NCBI GenBank assembly: GCA_903877645.1
Contig: CAIRES010000076.1
Coordinates: 1 to 62,742 of the forward strand
DNA from: an uncultured Bacteroidota bacterium
GTDB taxonomy: Bacteria; Bacteroidota; Bacteroidia; Chitinophagales; Chitinophagaceae
Direction of reading: 5' to 3'
Length of the DNA stretch: 62,742 bases
Shown: positions 3,858 through 17,370 of the stretch, piece after piece
How the letters are laid out: every line of letters starts with the position of its first letter
Position numbering within the stretch: position 1 is the first letter of the stretch
The notes under the pieces: model-generated
Seen by the model: the letters and a program-made list of their open reading frames with translations, nothing else
Database searches by the model: none
Told to the model about the DNA's origin: nothing
Made by a program: the position numbers and the translations under genes

Positions 3858-5222
3858 ATGAAAAGACTATTCCTCCTTACGCTGCTGCTTGTTCCCTGCC
3901 TGCTCCATGCCCAGATCATCACTACCTACGCCGGCACAGGTGCGCCCGGCTTTAGTGGCGACTACGGTGCTGCTACAAATGCCTCATTCCATATGCCGGT
4001 GGCAGTGGTTACCGATGCCTATGGCAACCTGTTCGTTACCGATGTGGTCAATAACCGGGTGAGGAAGATAGATAAATACGGTACCGTTATTCCTTATGCA
4101 GGCAACGGCAACATAGGCGCAGCCGGTGATGGCGGACAGGCAGTTGATGCCGAGTTTTATGGTATCTGTGGCCTGGCCATTGATAATGCAGGCAACCTCT
4201 GCATTGCCGATCAGTTCAACAACAAGATCAGGCGGGTAGATGTGAACACAGGCATCATTACCACTATCGCGGGCAACGGTACCGGCGGTTTTACCGGCGA
4301 TGGCGGCCATGCCACAGCCTCATCGCTACACGGCCCCGGCTGGATCACCTACGACAACAACGGCAACCTCTATATCTCCGACATCGGCAACAGCCGCATC
4401 CGCAGGGTCAATCCCGCTGGCATCATCACCACGGTTGTGGGCAATGGTACTATTGCCTATTATGGCGATGGCCTGCAGGGCACTGCCGCATCGCTCAACC
4501 AGCCTCGTGGCCTCGTCTGCGATCCGTCCGGCAACCTCTATATTGCCGACGAGCAGAACCACCGCATCCGCAAGCTCAATACCACCTCCGGCATCATGAG
4601 CACTGTTGCCGGCAATGGCAGTTATGTATACAATGGCGACAGCCTGGCCGCCACAGCCGCAGGCATGGTGCCCGAGGGGCTGCGCTTTGATGCCGCAGGC
4701 AATTTATACTATGCCGACTCCAGCACCACCGGCAGCGGCAACAGGGTGCGCGCCATCACACCAGGCGGCATGCTCTTTACCATAGCAGGCACAGGCGCCG
4801 CAGGCTATTTTGGCGATAGCCTACATGCCGATACTGCCTGGCTTTCCGGCCCTACTGATATGGATTTTGACCCCTGCGGAGGAATTTTTATTGCCGATGC
4901 CGGTAACAACCGCATCCGCCACATTACTTATATTACTGATTCTGCCTGCTATGCCCTTGGTGTAAACAATGTCGTGGAGAACCAATTCAATATTTATCCG
5001 AACCCCGCAAATGACCTCCTGCACATCGACAATGTTACAGCCACCACACACTATAGCCTCTTCAATATGGTTGGGGTGAGCGTCATACAGGGTACTTTGC
5101 AGCCGGGTACCAACACTATATCACTGGGCCTTATCGCGCAAGGCATCTACACCCTGCAATTCGCAGTAGGGGCCGGGCTTGCCCCTGCCCCCCTCGTGCA
5201 GAGAAAAATAATAAAATTGTAA
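3858..5222 (+). CDS. NHL-repeat secreted protein with T9SS sorting domain
   Basis: A 454-residue exported protein. It has a signal peptide (MKRLFLLTLLLVPCLLHAQ), then about six NHL propeller repeats of the form AGNG..GFxGDGG.A..A.L..P.G...D..GNLYIAD..N.RIRK. From about residue 375 it has a T9SS type A sorting domain with the motif IYPNPANDLLHIDN. The NHL repeats should fold as a beta-propeller, probably for binding at the cell surface; the ligand is unknown. The next gene (5320) is a paralogue in the same direction, so the pair arose by tandem duplication. Oddity: the last ten or so residues before RKIIKL read VGAGLAPAPLVQ, which is a palindromic repeat element inserted in frame (see 5160-5199). 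Confidence 0.9.
   Translation: MKRLFLLTLLLVPCLLHAQIITTYAGTGAPGFSGDYGAATNASFHMPVAVVTDAYGNLFVTDVVNNRVRKIDKYGTVIPYAGNGNIGAAGDGGQAVDAEFYGICGLAIDNAGNLCIADQFNNKIRRVDVNTGIITTIAGNGTGGFTGDGGHATASSLHGPGWITYDNNGNLYISDIGNSRIRRVNPAGIITTVVGNGTIAYYGDGLQGTAASLNQPRGLVCDPSGNLYIADEQNHRIRKLNTTSGIMSTVAGNGSYVYNGDSLAATAAGMVPEGLRFDAAGNLYYADSSTTGSGNRVRAITPGGMLFTIAGTGAAGYFGDSLHADTAWLSGPTDMDFDPCGGIFIADAGNNRIRHITYITDSACYALGVNNVVENQFNIYPNPANDLLHIDNVTATTHYSLFNMVGVSVIQGTLQPGTNTISLGLIAQGIYTLQFAVGAGLAPAPLVQRKIIKL
5160..5199. repeat. 40-bp palindromic repeat element inside the NHL gene
   Basis: This stretch matches two intergenic copies at 36543-36582 and 36613-36652 with about three mismatches in 40 bases. Its core, GGGGCCGGGCTTGCCCC, is palindromic. 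Here it is translated as part of the T9SS sorting domain (VGAGLAPAPL) without breaking the frame. Confidence 0.8.
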
Positions 5223-5319
5223 ACAGGCTTTCCGCCCAACCTTTTGTACAAAAAATGGCGTCTCATCTGTATGTGTAAGTGCCCGATGTGTGCTGACCTC
5301 ACCCCATATATGAACGATC

Positions 5320-6675
5320 ATGAAAAAAACACTACTGCTTGTTTCCATTCTTTTCTTGTTAGCGCTCGGCTATTGCTCCAATGCGCAGATCATCAGCACC
5401 ATAGCCGGAAATGGTACCGTTGGGTATGGCGGGGATGGCGGTATGGCTACTGCGGCTGAGTTCCATTACCCGGTCGGCATAGGCGTTGATGCGGCAAATA
5501 CCCTCTATATTGGAGACTATACGAATGACCGGATCCGCAAAATAACACCGACTGGTATAATCACTACTGTAGCCGGCAATGGTACACATGGGTATAGTGG
5601 AGACGGCGGTTCGGCTACCGCAGCCCAACTGGCGTGGCCATCGCATGTGGCCGTAGACGCAGGCGGGAACTTGTATATAGCAGATAATGCCAACAATCGA
5701 GTTCGCAAAGTAGATCCGGCAGGCATTATCACTACAATAGCCGGTAACAGTGGTATCCATGGGTATAGCGGAGATGGAGGCCCTGCGAGCGCAGCCATGT
5801 TATACATTCCTGACGATGTGGTTTACGATCATTTTACCGGCAACTTGTATATTACTGAAGCAGGCAATCATTGCATTCGGAAGATGACTCCTGGTGGCAT
5901 CATCACTACTGTTGCTGGTAATGGAACGTTTGGATTTAGCGGAGATGGTGGCGCTGCAACATCAGCACAGTTGAATACTCCTTATGGTATCGCGATTGAT
6001 GCTGCCGGCAATATTTTTATCGCTGACTTCAATAATTATCGGATCCGGAAGGTCGATACTGAAGGTAAGATCACGACTGTAGCCGGAACAGGGGTCAATG
6101 CATATAGCGGTGATGGGGGTCCGGCTACTGCGGCAGAGATTAGTGAAGTACAGTGCGTGATCGTTGATGGCGAGGGGAATGTATATTTTGCCGACACAGA
6201 TAATGAGCGCATACGTAAAATAAACACTGCGGGTACTATCAGCACTATTGCTGGTACGGGCACCGCCGGGCACACTGGCGATGGCGGCTTTGCGACTGCC
6301 GCAGAGCTGTACGACCCCACAGGCCTGGTTATTGATGGTCATGGTAATATGGATGTTGTGGAATTGGCAGATTGCTATATCCGTAAAATATCTTCCGTGG
6401 TAACCGGCGTCGGACCCGTTGCGAAAACACAGGCTGCTTTTATGAATGTTTATCCTAATCCGAATGCTGGTATATTCCGGGTTAGCTTATCTTCTCCCGT
6501 TCAGGAGGAGGTTTCGGTCTCTCTTGCAAACGCTTTCGGCGAAAAGGTAAAAGAATGGAATATGGCTACAAATCAGGAGATGGAGGTACAACTAAATATT
6601 CCATCGGGTACGTATTTGATATCTGCAGTTTCTGGTGGGCAAAAAGTCTCAGCAAAAGTCTTTGTTGGGCAATAA
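5320..6675 (+). CDS. NHL-repeat secreted protein with T9SS sorting domain
   Basis: A 451-residue paralogue of the preceding gene. It has a signal peptide (MKKTLLLVSILFLLALGYCSNAQ) and six NHL-type repeats with strongly conserved ITTVAGNGTxGYSGDGGxATAAxL and GNLYIADxxNNRIRKV blocks. From about residue 375 it has a T9SS sorting domain with VYPNPNAGIFRVS and a C-terminal GTYLISAVSGGQKVSAKVFVGQ-like strand. It is predicted to be a surface-displayed or released beta-propeller. The repeats are more alike here than in the neighbour, and this copy lacks the palindromic insertion. The 97-base gap before it has no terminator, so the two may be co-transcribed. Confidence 0.9.
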   Translation: MKKTLLLVSILFLLALGYCSNAQIISTIAGNGTVGYGGDGGMATAAEFHYPVGIGVDAANTLYIGDYTNDRIRKITPTGIITTVAGNGTHGYSGDGGSATAAQLAWPSHVAVDAGGNLYIADNANNRVRKVDPAGIITTIAGNSGIHGYSGDGGPASAAMLYIPDDVVYDHFTGNLYITEAGNHCIRKMTPGGIITTVAGNGTFGFSGDGGAATSAQLNTPYGIAIDAAGNIFIADFNNYRIRKVDTEGKITTVAGTGVNAYSGDGGPATAAEISEVQCVIVDGEGNVYFADTDNERIRKINTAGTISTIAGTGTAGHTGDGGFATAAELYDPTGLVIDGHGNMDVVELADCYIRKISSVVTGVGPVAKTQAAFMNVYPNPNAGIFRVSLSSPVQEEVSVSLANAFGEKVKEWNMATNQEMEVQLNIPSGTYLISAVSGGQKVSAKVFVGQ

Positions 6676-12367: not shown

Positions 12368-12427
12368 AGCTATTTATAGAACGGCTATAAATAGCTATTG
12401 CATAAGTGATTAATAATCGTAATTTTA
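12368..12427 (+). promoter_or_regulatory. Promoter with 19-bp shared operator (copy 1)
   Basis: A perfect 12-bp inverted repeat (AGCTATTTATAG at 12368-12379, CTATAAATAGCT at 12385-12396) overlaps the 19-mer GCTATAAATAGCTATTGCA at 12384-12402. That 19-mer recurs exactly at 15964-15982. It contains the -33 TTG (12398-12400). After a 19-base spacer comes TAATTTTA (12420-12427), a near match to TAnnTTTG. The membrane protein gene starts 41 bases later. The palindrome abutting -33 suggests a regulator site. Confidence 0.7.
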
Positions 12428-12468
12428 TGAAATTACTATGTTAGTTTATTCATCAAATCACTTTATTT

Positions 12469-13164
12469 ATGAACAAGTCAGATGCGATCTTTTGGGGGGT
12501 ATTTGCAGTGCTTGCAATTATACTCTGGCTATGCGATAGATACTTTAACCTCCTCAGGGATGTTAGCGACGCGGCAAAGAAGCCATACAGTTATTCGCGT
12601 GTGCAACTGGCTTGGTGGTCGCTGGTGATATTGTCTTCATTCATCGCCATATACTTGCTCACCGGCCAGATACCTACTTTCAATAGCTCTAATCTTATAT
12701 TGCTGGGTATTAGTGGAGGCACCACGGCAGCCGCGTCATTGATCGATTCCTCAGACCAGTCAAAAGGTGTTGTCCTTAGCCAGGACAGTAATGGTAAGAA
12801 CCTCTTCCAGGATATTCTATCGGATCAGAATGGTGTGAGCATGCATCGCCTGCAAACGGTGATCTTTAACCTGGTTATCGGCGTATGGTTCATTGAGCAG
12901 GTGAGCTACGGGATGGCGGGCCTGGCGTTAGGCCTGGTCAAATGCGCTTGTAAAGCTGATGCCATAGCGCTTTGCAAAACAGACCTGTTCAATAATATAA
13001 TGCCTATAGTGACACAAAATAACCTCATATTACTTGGCGTAAGCGCAGGCACGTACGCAGCATTAAAAACCAATGAGAACAAGCCGGGTATGAAATCTGC
13101 ACCCAACCAGATACCGGAAGTGGTGAAGGATGAGCACACTGGGACTAACGACGCAAAAGGTTAA
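12469..13164 (+). CDS. Membrane protein of unknown function
   Basis: I do not recognise a named family. The 231-residue protein has membrane segments at about residues 7-23 (IFWGVFAVLAIILWLCD), 46-66, 78-90, 124-150 and 182-196. The block YSYSRVQLAWWSLVILSSFIAIYLL is distinctive. There is a possible internal duplication: SSNLILLGISGGTTAAASLID near residue 74 and QNNLILLGVSAGTYAALKT near residue 183. The C-terminal tail (about 200-231) is hydrophilic. It is the first gene of the locus, starts 41 bases behind a promoter with the shared operator, and is separated from the amidase by only 9 bases, so the two are almost certainly co-expressed. Confidence 0.75.
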   Translation: MNKSDAIFWGVFAVLAIILWLCDRYFNLLRDVSDAAKKPYSYSRVQLAWWSLVILSSFIAIYLLTGQIPTFNSSNLILLGISGGTTAAASLIDSSDQSKGVVLSQDSNGKNLFQDILSDQNGVSMHRLQTVIFNLVIGVWFIEQVSYGMAGLALGLVKCACKADAIALCKTDLFNNIMPIVTQNNLILLGVSAGTYAALKTNENKPGMKSAPNQIPEVVKDEHTGTNDAKG

Positions 13165-13173
13165 ACGAGGGCT

Positions 13174-13929
13174 ATGAATATCATACAGGTGCCGAGTCCT
13201 AACTTTACGGAAGGTAGAAAAACGTATCACCCGGAGGCGATCGTGATCCATATCATGGATGGCACACTTGCCGGCACGGATAGCTGGTTTGGCAGCACGA
13301 AATCAAAGGTTTCAGCGCACTACGGCATTGGGCGGGATGGAACAGTACACCAGTTTGTTGATGAGCAAAATACAGCATGGCACGCAGGCCGGGTAAATGC
13401 GCCATCGTGGAGCTTAATAAAGCGGCTCTCTGATGGCTCATACATCAATCCCAATTTTTATACCATTGGCATAGAGCATGAAGGCAAGCCGGATAGCGAC
13501 TGGACAGACCAGATGTACGACTCCAGCAGCTCAATGATAGCGAAGATAGCCACCACGTATGGTATCCCTTTAGACAGGCAGCATATCATTGGACATCATG
13601 AGATATTTTCCATTAAAACATGCCCCGGCACTAAGGTGGATATCAATAAACTTATAGACATGAGCCGGCAAAAGGCAGGCTATGTAGCAGATCCGCAGAT
13701 CATTTACCAGGACGGAACTGTGGTCGTGACAGACAACCTGAATATAAGAAGTGGCACACCATCGAGAGCAGGCGCTATTGTACGCAAGGCTATTGCAAAT
13801 GAAAAGCTCCGGTTCGCGGCATACACAAATAACGGGGAGGCCATTGATGGCATTGCAAAGTGGTATCAAACGTCTGACAGGCTTTGGTTTTGGAGTGGAG
13901 CGGTAAAGCATGTTGACGTATTAGGATAG
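13174..13929 (+). CDS. N-acetylmuramoyl-L-alanine amidase (Amidase_2/PGRP fold) with SH3-like tail
   Basis: A 251-residue predicted zinc amidase that cuts the bond between N-acetylmuramic acid and the stem peptide. Visible motifs are AIVIHIMDG (first zinc His), VSAHYGIGRDGTVHQFV (second conserved His region), TAWHAG, IGIEHEG, and HHEIF...TCPGTKVDI at the end of the catalytic domain near residue 160. Residues about 185-250 form an SH3-like module (TDNLNIRSGTPSRAGAIVRK...KWYQ...LWFWSGAVKHV) that may bind cell wall. No signal peptide is visible, so it acts after lysis, through another export route, or in the cytoplasm. It sits inside the operator-bounded locus behind a membrane protein. Confidence 0.9.
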   Translation: MNIIQVPSPNFTEGRKTYHPEAIVIHIMDGTLAGTDSWFGSTKSKVSAHYGIGRDGTVHQFVDEQNTAWHAGRVNAPSWSLIKRLSDGSYINPNFYTIGIEHEGKPDSDWTDQMYDSSSSMIAKIATTYGIPLDRQHIIGHHEIFSIKTCPGTKVDINKLIDMSRQKAGYVADPQIIYQDGTVVVTDNLNIRSGTPSRAGAIVRKAIANEKLRFAAYTNNGEAIDGIAKWYQTSDRLWFWSGAVKHVDVLG

Positions 13930-13962
13930 CAATATAGTTAGGGCAAAAAGCAAAACAGTATT

Positions 13963-14274
13963 ATGGCACGGATAGACAGGGATACGGTAAAGCAAATAGT
14001 GGTGGATACGCTAAAGGCCATTGCTGATCTGCCGCAGGGGAATGTGGAGACGGCCTCATTGGCTATGCTGAATGATGATCAAAAGCAGATATTTTTATCG
14101 TCGCTGAAAAGCAATGTAAACGCATACCCGTATCATTTATCTGACGGTACGATAAACCCGGCATTGGCGTATTATGATGTGGATCTTACCATAGATACAT
14201 TCACTGTGTGGAAGACAGTCGGCGATTGTATTGATTGGGTTACGGCAAATCATTCTATTGTAAGCAAAAACTAA
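13963..14274 (+). CDS. Small protein, possibly acyl-carrier-like
   Basis: A 103-residue protein of no recognised family. It starts with a predicted helix (DRDTVKQIVVDTLKAIADL), has LNDDQKQIFLSSLKSNV in the middle and ends with TVWKTVGDCIDWVTANH. The first and last helices resemble those of acyl carrier proteins, whose last helix often reads TVGDxVDYV. The usual phosphopantetheine-carrying DSL serine is not present at the expected place (NDDQ instead). If the fold is right, it would be a carrier-like protein that is not modified. It lies 33 bases after the amidase and 7 bases before the next gene, so it belongs to the same operon. Confidence 0.6.
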   Translation: MARIDRDTVKQIVVDTLKAIADLPQGNVETASLAMLNDDQKQIFLSSLKSNVNAYPYHLSDGTINPALAYYDVDLTIDTFTVWKTVGDCIDWVTANHSIVSKN

Positions 14275-14281
14275 CCTTCAT

Positions 14282-15613
14282 ATGAAGTTCAGGATATTTC
14301 TTTGCGTGCTTTTCGGGCTGCCTGTGTGCTTTGATGCAAAAGCACAGAGTGATACCAGTATTTTAAAATTGACCAATGTATACCTTGTCGAAAATACGGT
14401 CAATGGATTCTCATTAAAGCTCGAATTTAAAACGGGGCTGGACAGCCTGCTGATAGATGATGAATACATGCTGCTGAATGATGCGAGCAAGCCCGGCTTT
14501 CATGTTACTTACCAGGGTGTGGCATCGAAGGGTAGCTGTATAGAGGCGCATACAACGATTGGTCATAGCGACTTTGGGGTGAAGGTGGAGAAATTTACGG
14601 ACAAACAAATACGACTGTTCTTAGCAAAGGATGTGCAGATAGGGGTGCAATGCGATAAAGATTTTATGGTGCGCTATCATTTGGCAAACGCAAAAAAGCC
14701 GGAAACCGGCTATCATTACTTCATTGTAAGGGCAGACAACCTGAATGCCCTGATCACCAACAGCCTCACTATCTCTGACAGCGACAGGAGTTCGTATGTT
14801 ACTGCTATCAACAACTACTACTATTTTGAAAATAAAGTAGACGTGGGCGTAGCGCCTTCAACACCCGGTGCCGCCACCTCTTATGTGCTGTCGGCGACAA
14901 TACGCAATAAGTACATACCATCAAAAATGATGTCGTGCAATGCAGGCGATGGCGTCAGCACCTCAAAACCACAGCTATTCTGGAGCCTTGCAACAAGGCT
15001 GAGTACCAACCAGGCTGATTCATTGAATTATATCAGCTTTAGCCCAATTAACCTGGCCTGGTACTCCCGCAATTTTGCCCGCCAGCTCAATATTAAACTG
15101 AGCAATGAATCTGACGAGACTTTTACCAACAAGCGCGCTGCGCTGGATGGCTCTTTCCAAACGATCATCCCCAACTTTGTGAATTTCACTACGCCGCAAG
15201 ACGACCGGCTACGCCTGAAACCGATAGTGAACATTGGGGCAAAGGGCTACTACGATTATTCTAACGGCATAGATGCTTTTGCATCAGGCCAAGGGTATGC
15301 CAAACTCTATTATTACATACCGGTGTATAACCATTACTCATTCATCATTAATGGTACTGCCTTTTATGATCTGAGCACACAGCGCAATCCCGGCCACAGG
15401 CTCAGTACCAATTATTCGGTGACAGTGGCGTCAGAGCTGCCTGTTACAGGCTTTAAAGCTATACTGAAGTACGAGAATGGCAAGTCGGACTATGATTCTA
15501 AAACAGGGAGTACTGTGATCATCGGCTTAATGATGGACTTCCTCAAAGACCATAAAGGACTGGCCGATGATGCCGCCAAAGTGCAGAACAAACTGAGCAA
15601 CCTGAAAGGGTAG
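14282..15613 (+). CDS. Secreted protein of unknown function, beta-rich C-terminal half
   Basis: A 443-residue protein with a signal peptide (MKFRIFLCVLFGLPVCFDAKAQ). The N-terminal part (about 25-165) looks like a beta-sandwich. The C-terminal half has many alternating hydrophobic strands (RLRLKPIVNIGAKGYYDYSNG, YAKLYYYIPVYNHYSFIINGTAFYDL, GSTVIIGLMMDFL), which fits an outer-membrane barrel, although the chain ends in a hydrophilic tail rather than an aromatic. No T9SS sorting motif is seen. It starts 7 bases after the preceding gene. Function unknown. Confidence 0.7.
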   Translation: MKFRIFLCVLFGLPVCFDAKAQSDTSILKLTNVYLVENTVNGFSLKLEFKTGLDSLLIDDEYMLLNDASKPGFHVTYQGVASKGSCIEAHTTIGHSDFGVKVEKFTDKQIRLFLAKDVQIGVQCDKDFMVRYHLANAKKPETGYHYFIVRADNLNALITNSLTISDSDRSSYVTAINNYYYFENKVDVGVAPSTPGAATSYVLSATIRNKYIPSKMMSCNAGDGVSTSKPQLFWSLATRLSTNQADSLNYISFSPINLAWYSRNFARQLNIKLSNESDETFTNKRAALDGSFQTIIPNFVNFTTPQDDRLRLKPIVNIGAKGYYDYSNGIDAFASGQGYAKLYYYIPVYNHYSFIINGTAFYDLSTQRNPGHRLSTNYSVTVASELPVTGFKAILKYENGKSDYDSKTGSTVIIGLMMDFLKDHKGLADDAAKVQNKLSNLKG

Positions 15614-15732
15614 TCTCCACATACTATTATAGCCACATACGGGGAAAACACCCTTTTTATTTCCTGAATAACACCGGCTAAGGCCGCTGCTTTGCGCTGC
15701 AATTTTACAGCACATTCTAAAAGCAGCTAAAA

Positions 15733-15957
15733 ATGAACACCACCACACCACACACATCTTTGGGCGTAGGCCTCACTCCCCGCGAGCGGGAGGTACTCCA
15801 CTGCATTGCCGAGGGCCTGAGTACCAAACAGATTGCCGGCAAGCTCTTCATCAGCCACTACACGGTAGCCAACCACCGCAAAAACATGCTGGCCAAACTC
15901 GGTGCCAAAAGCAGCGCCCAGCTTGTAAGACAAATGTATTCCTACGCTCTCGGCTAG
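15733..15957 (+). CDS. Stand-alone LuxR-type HTH regulator
   Basis: A 74-residue protein made of little more than a LuxR/NarL helix-turn-helix. It runs from LTPREREVLHCIAEGLSTKQIAGKLFISHYTVANHRKNMLAKLGAKSSAQLVRQ with the canonical fingerprint residues. There is no receiver, PAS or autoinducer domain. Such single-domain proteins dimerise on palindromic DNA. Its position between two promoters that share a palindromic 19-mer makes it the likely binder of that site (inference). A CAATTTTA box at 15700-15707 suggests its own promoter, but no TTG lies at the -33 distance. Confidence 0.85.
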   Translation: MNTTTPHTSLGVGLTPREREVLHCIAEGLSTKQIAGKLFISHYTVANHRKNMLAKLGAKSSAQLVRQMYSYALG

Positions 15958-15959
15958 AA

Positions 15960-16008
15960 AATAGCTATAAATAGCTATTGCAGCCGCAGCGGTCATTTTT
16001 CAATTTTA
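15960..16008 (+). promoter_or_regulatory. Promoter with 19-bp shared operator (copy 2)
   Basis: The 19-mer GCTATAAATAGCTATTGCA recurs at 15964-15982, exactly as at 12384-12402. Here it is part of a 9-bp inverted repeat (AATAGCTAT at 15960-15968, ATAGCTATT at 15971-15979). It includes the -33 TTG (15978-15980). After a 20-base spacer comes CAATTTTA (16001-16008), in the place of the -7 box. The site begins only two bases after the LuxR-type gene and serves the gene at 16065. Confidence 0.7.
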
Positions 16009-16064
16009 CACACAAACCGGGAAGCCGAAAACGGGATTATAGAGTAGGCAGGAAATTTTATTTT

Positions 16065-16316
16065 ATGCAAAACGTAACTATTACAGCAGTATCCGATTCA
16101 GGATGGATAAAAATTTATGTAGATGGTAATGAAGTATTAGGTGCACCAGGTAGCACCACAATTAGTTTAGGTACGGGTACTCACGACCTTGATTATTATG
16201 TTCAAGGATCGAAAGGAGATACTTACAGAGTAAGTACTTCTGAGCCGTGGGATTCCGGCCTGATAATTATGTCTGGCAGGCATTCTGGAGGTGGACATGA
16301 AATAATTATTCCGTAA
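16065..16316 (+). CDS. Small protein of unknown function
   Basis: An 83-residue protein (MQNVTITAVSDSGWIKIYVDG...). The frame is open further upstream, but ATG at 16065 was chosen because the promoter box at 16001-16008 places the transcript start after the more distant ATG. It is rich in glycine, serine and threonine with alternating hydrophobic residues, so probably an all-beta domain. No signal peptide or membrane segment is visible. It is 19 bases before the next gene and likely shares its transcript. It and the next gene are AT-richer than most of the window. Confidence 0.6.
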   Translation: MQNVTITAVSDSGWIKIYVDGNEVLGAPGSTTISLGTGTHDLDYYVQGSKGDTYRVSTSEPWDSGLIIMSGRHSGGGHEIIIP

Positions 16317-16335
16317 ACATAAAAATTATTTTTCC

Positions 16336-17370
16336 ATGAAAAAAATATTTTACTTTTTCCCGCTTATAATTATAGCAGGTGCTGCTACCGGACAAGATGC
16401 TGATTATGCGAAAGCAAAAAAGCTTGAGTTAACTACAAGCTCATCCATTGGATCAAATTTTTTGTCTGCATTTTCTTTTACACAATTAACTGCAACTAAT
16501 GATGGTACAAATGCTGAGGCGGCTGTAAGAATACGGATGAACCGAGGATATAATTTGGGTTTGGATGTTTCTACGCCAGTTTCTGGTAGTGGCCAGGTAA
16601 AGCCATTAACTCAAAATGGGTTATCAAATAATAGCAGTGCTACAATCAGTCTTCAAAAAGTATTTTGGGGCTTGGGTTTTAAACCAAATATTAAAACTCG
16701 AGATAGTGTAGTTGCTAATTTGAAAAAAGAGGGTAAAATAAAAGGAGCAGATTGGAATTATGAATCACTAGATGACGCGTCAAAGTCACGCATTGACGCT
16801 AGTACAGATTGGGGGACTGCCCTTTTTGTTGGAGCCAAAATTAAGTTTGATCAAATTGGATTCACCTATTTTGCTGACACTGGTTCAGGCACTGTTAAAG
16901 ACGAATCAAAGTTAGGAATAAATATAACCGGCACTTTTGGGATGTTATTTAACAAAGGGAATAATCTCTCAGTATCATACACTTATATAAACTCTTATTC
17001 TGGTACAGATCCTTTAACTTATTCTATACCAGTAAATAGTAGTGGCATTTCAGTTCAACAATCTATTAGCCCAACACCTCCAAGCCAAAACATTGACAGT
17101 AAATTCAAGCTTGAATACGTTTCTGCACCCATAAATTCATCTTTTATGCTTGACCCGAGTATTAGTGCTACAATGAGCCAAAAAGTATTATCTGCCAACC
17201 TGCCAATTTATTTTTTATCCAATGTTGATAAGGATAATAAAAAGACTGGATTAAATGGTGGTATATACATTAGCTACCTAACCGATAAAGATTGGAAGTT
17301 CAATTTTAATAAAGCTAACTACGGCTTTGGTGTATTTATTGGTGCTAACATAAAAGATCTTTTCAACTAA
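16336..17370 (+). CDS. Secreted beta-rich protein, possible outer-membrane barrel
   Basis: A 344-residue protein with a signal peptide (MKKIFYFFPLIIIAGAATGQ). The rest shows repeated amphipathic strands such as VRIRMNRGYNLGLDVSTPV, TALFVGAKIKFDQIGFTYFAD, LGINITGTFGMLF, NLSVSYTYINSY and a last strand YGFGVFIGANIKDLFN that ends near an aromatic. This suggests a porin-like or OmpA-like barrel. No named family was recognised. Base composition is clearly more AT-rich than the genes on either side, which may indicate acquisition by transfer. It ends at a two-way terminator shared with atpA. Confidence 0.7.
   Translation: MKKIFYFFPLIIIAGAATGQDADYAKAKKLELTTSSSIGSNFLSAFSFTQLTATNDGTNAEAAVRIRMNRGYNLGLDVSTPVSGSGQVKPLTQNGLSNNSSATISLQKVFWGLGFKPNIKTRDSVVANLKKEGKIKGADWNYESLDDASKSRIDASTDWGTALFVGAKIKFDQIGFTYFADTGSGTVKDESKLGINITGTFGMLFNKGNNLSVSYTYINSYSGTDPLTYSIPVNSSGISVQQSISPTPPSQNIDSKFKLEYVSAPINSSFMLDPSISATMSQKVLSANLPIYFLSNVDKDNKKTGLNGGIYISYLTDKDWKFNFNKANYGFGVFIGANIKDLFN

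Follow-up and report, generated by a model that had tools for sequence, protein, structure and literature searches.

The window analysed here is a stretch of 62,742 nucleotides from an uncultured member of the Chitinophagaceae (Bacteroidota; assembly GCA_903877645.1, contig CAIRES010000076.1), and contains a short LuxR-type gene, luxR, lying between two sets of genes that are each preceded by a palindrome and a promoter-like sequence (Table 1). The upstream set consists of four genes, including one for an N-acetylmuramoyl-L-alanine amidase, and the downstream set of two genes behind a DUF805b leader RNA. The palindromes are candidate operators for the LuxR-type protein, with a counterpart of the second one retained in a related genome that lacks the upstream set.

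Table 1. Features of the luxR locus in window coordinates; operators, promoters and starts are predictions
Feature	Positions	Strand	Details
Left arm of inverted repeat	12368..12379	+	12-bp arm, pairing with 12385-12396
Operator 1	12382..12397	+	7-2-7 palindrome CGGCTAT-AA-ATAGCTA; imperfect left half, right half as in operator 2; centre ~-42.5
Promoter 1	12398..12427	+	TTG (-33), 19 bases, TAATTTTA (-7 box at 12420-12427); predicted start ~12432
Target operon, gene 1	12469..13164	+	231-aa protein; hydrophobic segments by eye; without named family
Target operon, gene 2	13174..13929	+	N-acetylmuramoyl-L-alanine amidase (Amidase_2, 102.4 bits)
Target operon, gene 3	13963..14274	+	103-aa protein; no family above cut-off
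Target operon, gene 4	14282..15613	+	443-aa protein; no family above cut-off; start signal-peptide-like by eye
Conserved element upstream of luxR	15638..15664	+	TACGGGGAAAACACCCTTTTTATTTCC (TACGGGGAAAACACCC...); by eye; near-identical in G023, G025 and G004
luxR	15733..15957	+	LuxR/GerE-type regulator, DNA-binding domain only, 74 aa
Operator 2	15962..15977	+	Perfect 7-2-7 palindrome TAGCTAT-AA-ATAGCTA, 4 bases past luxR stop; centre ~-43.5
Promoter 2	15978..16008	+	TTG (-33), 20 bases, CAATTTTA (-7 box at 16001-16008); predicted start ~16013
DUF805b leader RNA (RF02914)	16015..16050	+	H-type pseudoknot; 38.4 bits against gathering threshold 35.6
Second operon, gene 1	16065..16316	+	83-aa protein; Laminin_G_3 below cut-off (20.7 against 27.6 bits)
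Second operon, gene 2	16336..17370	+	344-aa protein; no Pfam family; start signal-peptide-like by eye

The 19-mer GCTATAAATAGCTATTGCA occurs exactly at 12384-12402 and 15964-15982, as an earlier reading of the sequence (the original prediction) had stated, and the window holds no other match to it at up to 3 mismatches; none of 100 dinucleotide shuffles of the window reached two matches (mean 0.05). In the whole genome (G000; 3,838,031 bases in 88 contigs) these two sites are the only exact copies, followed by five matches with 3 mismatches, and the comparison set of 35 genomes of the genus, G000 included, yielded one other exact copy, in G023, together with a LuxR protein 89% identical to that of the window. 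The searches run did not find the 19-mer to be widespread at places without promoters. Both copies lie in inverted repeats, with 12-bp arms at 12368-12379 and 12385-12396 and 9-bp arms at 15960-15968 and 15971-15979, as originally described. In the 7-2-7 form of NarL-type sites, the second has 7/7 pairs and the first is imperfect in its outer left half.

A TTG at -33 is part of the Bacteroidetes housekeeping promoter, and both copies carry one (12398-12400 and 15978-15980), followed 19 and 20 bases later by TAATTTTA and CAATTTTA, again as predicted. These boxes are near the Bacteroidetes -7 consensus TAnnTTTG, which spans -12 to -5 in Flavobacterium psychrophilum (PMC9723704). Placing them in that register puts the predicted transcription starts at about 12432 and about 16013 in place of the 12435 and 16015 first proposed.

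The frame at 15733-15957 encodes the expected 74 residues and matches Pfam GerE with 77.9 bits (gathering threshold 23.5), its sole Pfam match above cut-off. A search of the PDB gave GerE as the best match (42.6 bits), followed by 3clo, a transcriptional regulator of 258 residues, and NarL; the protein is nonetheless far from NarL proper, scoring 41.3 bits against a curated NCBIfam cut-off of 250. Pfam gave no match to a receiver domain or to an autoinducer-binding domain, which places the protein outside the LuxR solos of quorum sensing. Judged from these matches, it is a LuxR/GerE/NarL-type regulator consisting of the DNA-binding domain only. A LuxR solo is in general a protein with a LuxR-type helix-turn-helix and no LuxI partner nearby, and the term solo is used below for the short genes.

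Relatives of luxR were sought in the 35 genomes of the genus, among the matches listed there, and in a scan of named genomes, from which the 80 best-scoring loci of a larger number were used; among those 80, the open frame is at most 125 codons at 13, L210 (129 codons, the gene of G025) was also counted as solo, and the other 66 are longer. The short-gene loci come mostly from records of uncultured Bacteroidetes, with one labelled Flavipsychrobacter. L225, a short Mucilaginibacter gene of the R type (residue 50, discussed below), was excluded from later solo counts, and the palindrome count also excludes G030, G012 and G031, in which the search motif was not found. In the 76 bases inspected at each locus just downstream of the gene, a 7-2-7 palindrome with at least 6/7 pairs is present at 9/17 solo loci and 18/66 full-length LuxR loci, and a perfect one at 4/17 and 3/66, respectively. 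In G023 the palindrome behind luxR, TGGCTAT-AA-ATAGCCA, departs from that of the window only at two positions that mirror each other. Inspection by eye showed a perfect palindrome in L221, starting before the luxR stop codon, and a variant in G028 whose centre is 3 bases long. The pattern TAGCYAT-NN-ATRGCTA with one mismatch matches in 35/35 genomes and is not decisive, exceeding its reversed control in G000 (6 vs 2), G023 (7 vs 0) and G008 (7 vs 1), with the control richer in G019 (6 vs 13) and G029 (2 vs 9). At L214 (611-1000), the solo luxR is followed by a tandem of two 7-2-7-like palindromes with a spacing of about 22 bp, and then by a TTG and a -7-like box.

The distance between palindrome and promoter was examined in 26 operator regions aligned on the palindrome end, 8 of them from G000 and G023, where the -7 box had entered the search or the original prediction. 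A set of 18 promoters was gathered without the -7 box, from palindromes at luxR relatives, two G026 genes, one G020 gene and TAGTCAT sites, the last contributed by G026 (three exact and one near-exact, C122). In this set the best 7-column block, at columns 25-31, carries 7.87 bits, a value reached by 0 of 5000 rotations (mean 2.93, maximum 4.74). The 11 luxR-adjacent regions alone gave 8.75 bits (maximum 6.22), and the set without C122, C123 and C125 of G026 (n=15) gave 8.05 bits (maximum 5.58); an initial run on 23/26 regions, with three G023 rows out and C84 out of register, had given 7.72 bits against a maximum of 4.76 in 2000 shifts. The -7 box thus lies at a fixed distance from the palindrome, placing the operator centre at about -43, a position from which NarL activates.

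This fixed distance, and the occurrence of identical copies before unrelated genes, would be left unexplained if the palindrome instead served luxR (and the MlaE operon) as an intrinsic terminator and the promoter-like bases had arisen by chance. A terminator would account for the position of the palindrome 4 bases past the luxR stop and for the T-run that follows it in G008, G004, G005, L211, L215 and L224. In G026, however, two exact copies (C123 and C125) lie between divergently transcribed genes; the window copies both precede TTGCA, with no T-run directly after either palindrome, and the perfect centre would leave a 2-base loop, which seems more natural for a DNA operator. The two sites between divergent genes and the fixed spacing make the terminator reading improbable.

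The operator sequence also differs in four genomes with a different recognition helix. In G017, G020, G026 and G028 the solo LuxR carries R instead of K at position 50 of this helix region and goes with GTCAT operators, whereas the ten operators of K50 proteins have other heptamers, none of them GTCAT (Fisher 0.001, ignoring ancestry); two further K-type loci, in G025 and G004, have half-site or atypical sequences, and the pairing does not extend to other short R-type genes. In the alignment with NarL (1a04_A), position 50 corresponds to chain position 191, a residue that contacts bases in NarL. Exact TAGTCAT-NN-ATGACTA sites number 5 in G026, 1 in G020 and 0 in the other 33 genomes, and the exact reversed pattern has a single match among the 35, in G000. 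It is suggestive, but not decisive, that residue 50 (K or R) may set the preference for TAGCTAT or TAGTCAT, and the two combinations lend themselves to testing whether this residue determines specificity.

The same distribution bears on whether the palindromes could be operators of another LuxR/NarL-type response regulator, with the solo gene a mere neighbour. G000 has at least three further LuxR-type matches, and full-length LuxR response regulators adjoin some other DUF805b promoters, but the palindrome stands behind a solo luxR at several different chromosomal places and the only two genomes with exact TAGTCAT sites both have R-type solos, so that control by another such regulator is unlikely.

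The locus of G023 allows a further alternative to be weighed, namely that the 19-mers flank a 3.6-kb insertion, having arisen by target-site duplication or serving as repeats for recombination. In G023 the order is SecDF, MlaE, LuxR and palindrome, then one further gene and AtpA, and the block 12469-15613 is absent, the gap reaching from the MlaE stop almost to luxR and indicating that the block was gained or lost. G023 nevertheless keeps a version of the second site, which is therefore independent of the block; the missing block excludes luxR, yet the 19-mers flank luxR too. The four block proteins have no transposase or integrase match in Pfam, PHROGs or NCBIfam, and sites of the same kind are present on other contigs. 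A mobile element was rejected, as G023 has the second site without the 3.4-kb block, and this origin is highly improbable.

The original prediction envisaged a regulon of two operons, which proves too small. The composite pattern AGCTATTGCA-N15-20-AATTTT has four sites in G000 (two in the window and one each on contigs C57 and C84), three in G023 and one each in G010 and G026, with none in the other 31/35 genomes and 0 matches to the reversed control in 35. This search did not recover the match with 3 mismatches at C12:40478 of G000, which overlaps the end of an opposite-strand gene and was dismissed as a chance match. Downstream of the C57 site and two of the G023 sites are secreted-looking genes that are NHL-like by eye, in themselves or in the next gene; at C84 a frame of 116 aa comes first and NHL-like genes follow, and the contig ends behind the third G023 site. 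Three proteins, two at C84 and one in G023, score above cut-off for a T9SS sorting domain and below cut-off for an NHL model. A long leader is common to the genes behind the operators at C57 (L340), L107, L108 and L109, and that of the L109 NHL gene matches nothing in Rfam at E values up to 1. For two neighbouring NHL-like genes in the window (3858-6675), no 19-mer copy was found even with 3 mismatches allowed.

Related patterns gave fewer results. ATGACTATTTT-N19-22-TTTTRC matches twice in G026 and once each in G020 and G033, with one match to the reversed control (G017); TAGCTATTTTTT-N17-20-TTTAC matches in none of the 35 genomes, a result made uninformative by a gap bound one base short for the G008 site. 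The cargo behind or near such promoters includes the 231-aa family (with homologues in G017 and G026, the latter behind its own operator), amidase, papain-like peptidase, calcineurin-like phosphoesterases (L214, and C123 of G026) and a tail-collar protein (L214), and in L224 a caspase-domain protein is encoded upstream of luxR. The 344-aa protein of the window has a positional counterpart in G023 with 24% identity. No common function follows from these genes. Near the solo luxR of L221 (5084-6256), a short cysteine-containing peptide gene is followed by a RimK-like ATP-grasp gene (MvdD below cut-off), possibly a graspetide cluster.

The conserved element upstream of luxR (15638-15664) is possibly a site for a second regulator acting on luxR. 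In G020 and G028 it resembles TACCGT repeats about 22 bp apart, a pattern reminiscent of LytTR-type direct repeats.

Several points weigh against the pairing of the solo LuxR with the palindromes. Palindromicity alone discriminates weakly (9/17 vs 18/66; Fisher p 0.08). G025 and C84 offer half-sites only, the palindromes of G026 and G020 lie farther than 70 bases from the luxR stop, and no palindrome was seen in the bases available at the solo of G030, nor one of this kind in the 110 bases seen at L225. L261, which has R50, lacks such a palindrome as well. TT[TA] at columns 27-29 is present in only 13/18 promoters (7/11 luxR-adjacent and 10/15 in the reduced set), the spacing was tested on promoters in which it had already been noticed by eye, and the strand of the G026 sites between genes was chosen by the analyst. 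The R label needs only one or two origins on a poorly resolved tree, and with one mismatch the reversed TAGTCAT control equals or exceeds the pattern in many genomes (pattern 5 vs control 6 in G026), so that only exact matches count. The C57, C84 and G023 sites were found by a pattern containing the -7 box, and those of C57 and G023 are not independent because of their shared leader. Set against these points, the palindromes at relatives, the fixed distance to the -7 box and the operator difference of the R50 proteins lend comparative support to the proposal that the LuxR-type protein binds the repeat, and the 74-aa protein and the 7-2-7 palindromes probably form a regulator-operator pair, in substance as the original prediction proposed.

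The leader behind the second site, which the original prediction had no means of recognising, is a DUF805b RNA (38.4 vs 35.6 bits), in which the P1 pairing CCG/CGG is present. DUF805b is reportedly a published cis-regulatory motif of Bacteroidetes. In the genus, 32/35 genomes have a match at E <=0.01 and 19/35 one above cut-off, with 36 matches in G020, compared with 2 of 14 control genomes with a match and 0 above cut-off. In 96 distinct RNAs selected on their conserved loops and P1 hairpin, with the second helix disregarded, the pseudoknot helix is exactly paired in 75 (2000 shuffles: mean 20.2, maximum 34). By eye, a DUF805b-like leader lies within about 1 kb downstream at 9/16 solo-luxR loci, a count that leaves out L225, L261, G030, G012 and G031; G012 has a DUF805b-like RNA 34 bases after a LuxR match. 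Conversely, a LuxR-type gene is near DUF805b at 14/60 fetched loci, and on the same strand at most 4 kb upstream at 6/60, counts that miss L193 and come without a matched control. The kind of regulator is already known; for its combination with DUF805b no report was found in the open-access literature, as judged from listings.

DUF805b-like RNAs are also found in tandem, as two copies separated by 31-34 bases (L143, L145, L162, L166, L172), and as arrays before successive genes (L190, L191, L199). In L144, L145 and L162, the -33 region of DUF805b promoters with TAnnTTTG-like boxes coincides in part with palindrome-like stretches, for example ACCATAAATGGTTATTG, and L145 and L162 have a full-length LuxR response regulator next door.

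The sites, their spacing, their linkage to luxR relatives, the different operator of the four R50 genomes and the RNA leader are features of the sequence; the model proposed from them extends to binding, dimerisation, activation, starts, a signal and target roles. The GerE-like protein, as a dimer, would bind the TAGCTAT-AA-ATAGCTA palindromes, centred about 43 bases upstream of the start and beside the -33 region, where it would most likely aid the housekeeping sigma factor in starting transcription. The predicted targets are the 231-aa/amidase operon (12469-15613) and the 83-aa/344-aa operon (16065-17370), the messenger RNA of which would start with the DUF805b pseudoknot, and the NHL-repeat gene clusters of C57 and C84. 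Given the pair, activation is likely. A variant of the same reading, overlapping with it, in which the same regulator represses by blocking the -33 region, is distinctly less probable but has points in its favour: the palindrome abuts the -33 TTG, and NarL also represses from some sites (PMC4549865). The centre at about -43 agrees instead with NarL activation sites, and by eye at least 4 T in a row replace the TTG beside the palindrome in 14/18 promoters outside G000 and G023, as might be expected of activator-dependent promoters.

More tentatively, luxR, the 7-2-7 promoter and DUF805b could form a portable two-layer module, a DNA switch joined to an RNA switch, in which unrelated cargo genes for surface, cell-wall-active and secreted proteins are swapped across lineages of one bacterial group and DUF805b adds a second signal or boosts translation. 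This uncultured Bacteroidota group gains a predicted regulator, operator and promoter that are directly testable, and the orphan RNA family DUF805b is tied to identifiable LuxR-linked promoters, making its role testable on defined transcripts.

Among known systems, GerE of Bacillus subtilis (PDB 1FSE) is, like the window protein, a LuxR-type DNA-binding domain of 74 residues standing alone; it controls spore-coat genes and differs from the window regulator in phylum, operator and targets. The PedR model (NCBIfam NF052366), linked by name to photosynthesis, likewise has 74 positions, but the window protein scores 40.1 bits, below the curated cut-off of 120. Autoinducer-type LuxR solos have an autoinducer-binding domain, unlike the window protein, and DUF805b (RF02914) is represented in the window by a copy directly behind the promoter of the LuxR-solo operator. 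NarL differs in its receiver domain, nitrate input and Escherichia coli -35/-10 promoter, and its consensus heptamer is TACYYMT (TAGCTAT in the window). The sites of its output domain at the ogt, napF and yeaR promoters resemble the window operators in being inverted 7-2-7 heptamers (PMC4549865 and PMC7419079). The NarL output domain is described as binding 7-2-7 sites and as fully activating napF by itself from -40 to -49 (PMC4549865), and NarL as acting from -44.5 at ogt (PMC7419079).

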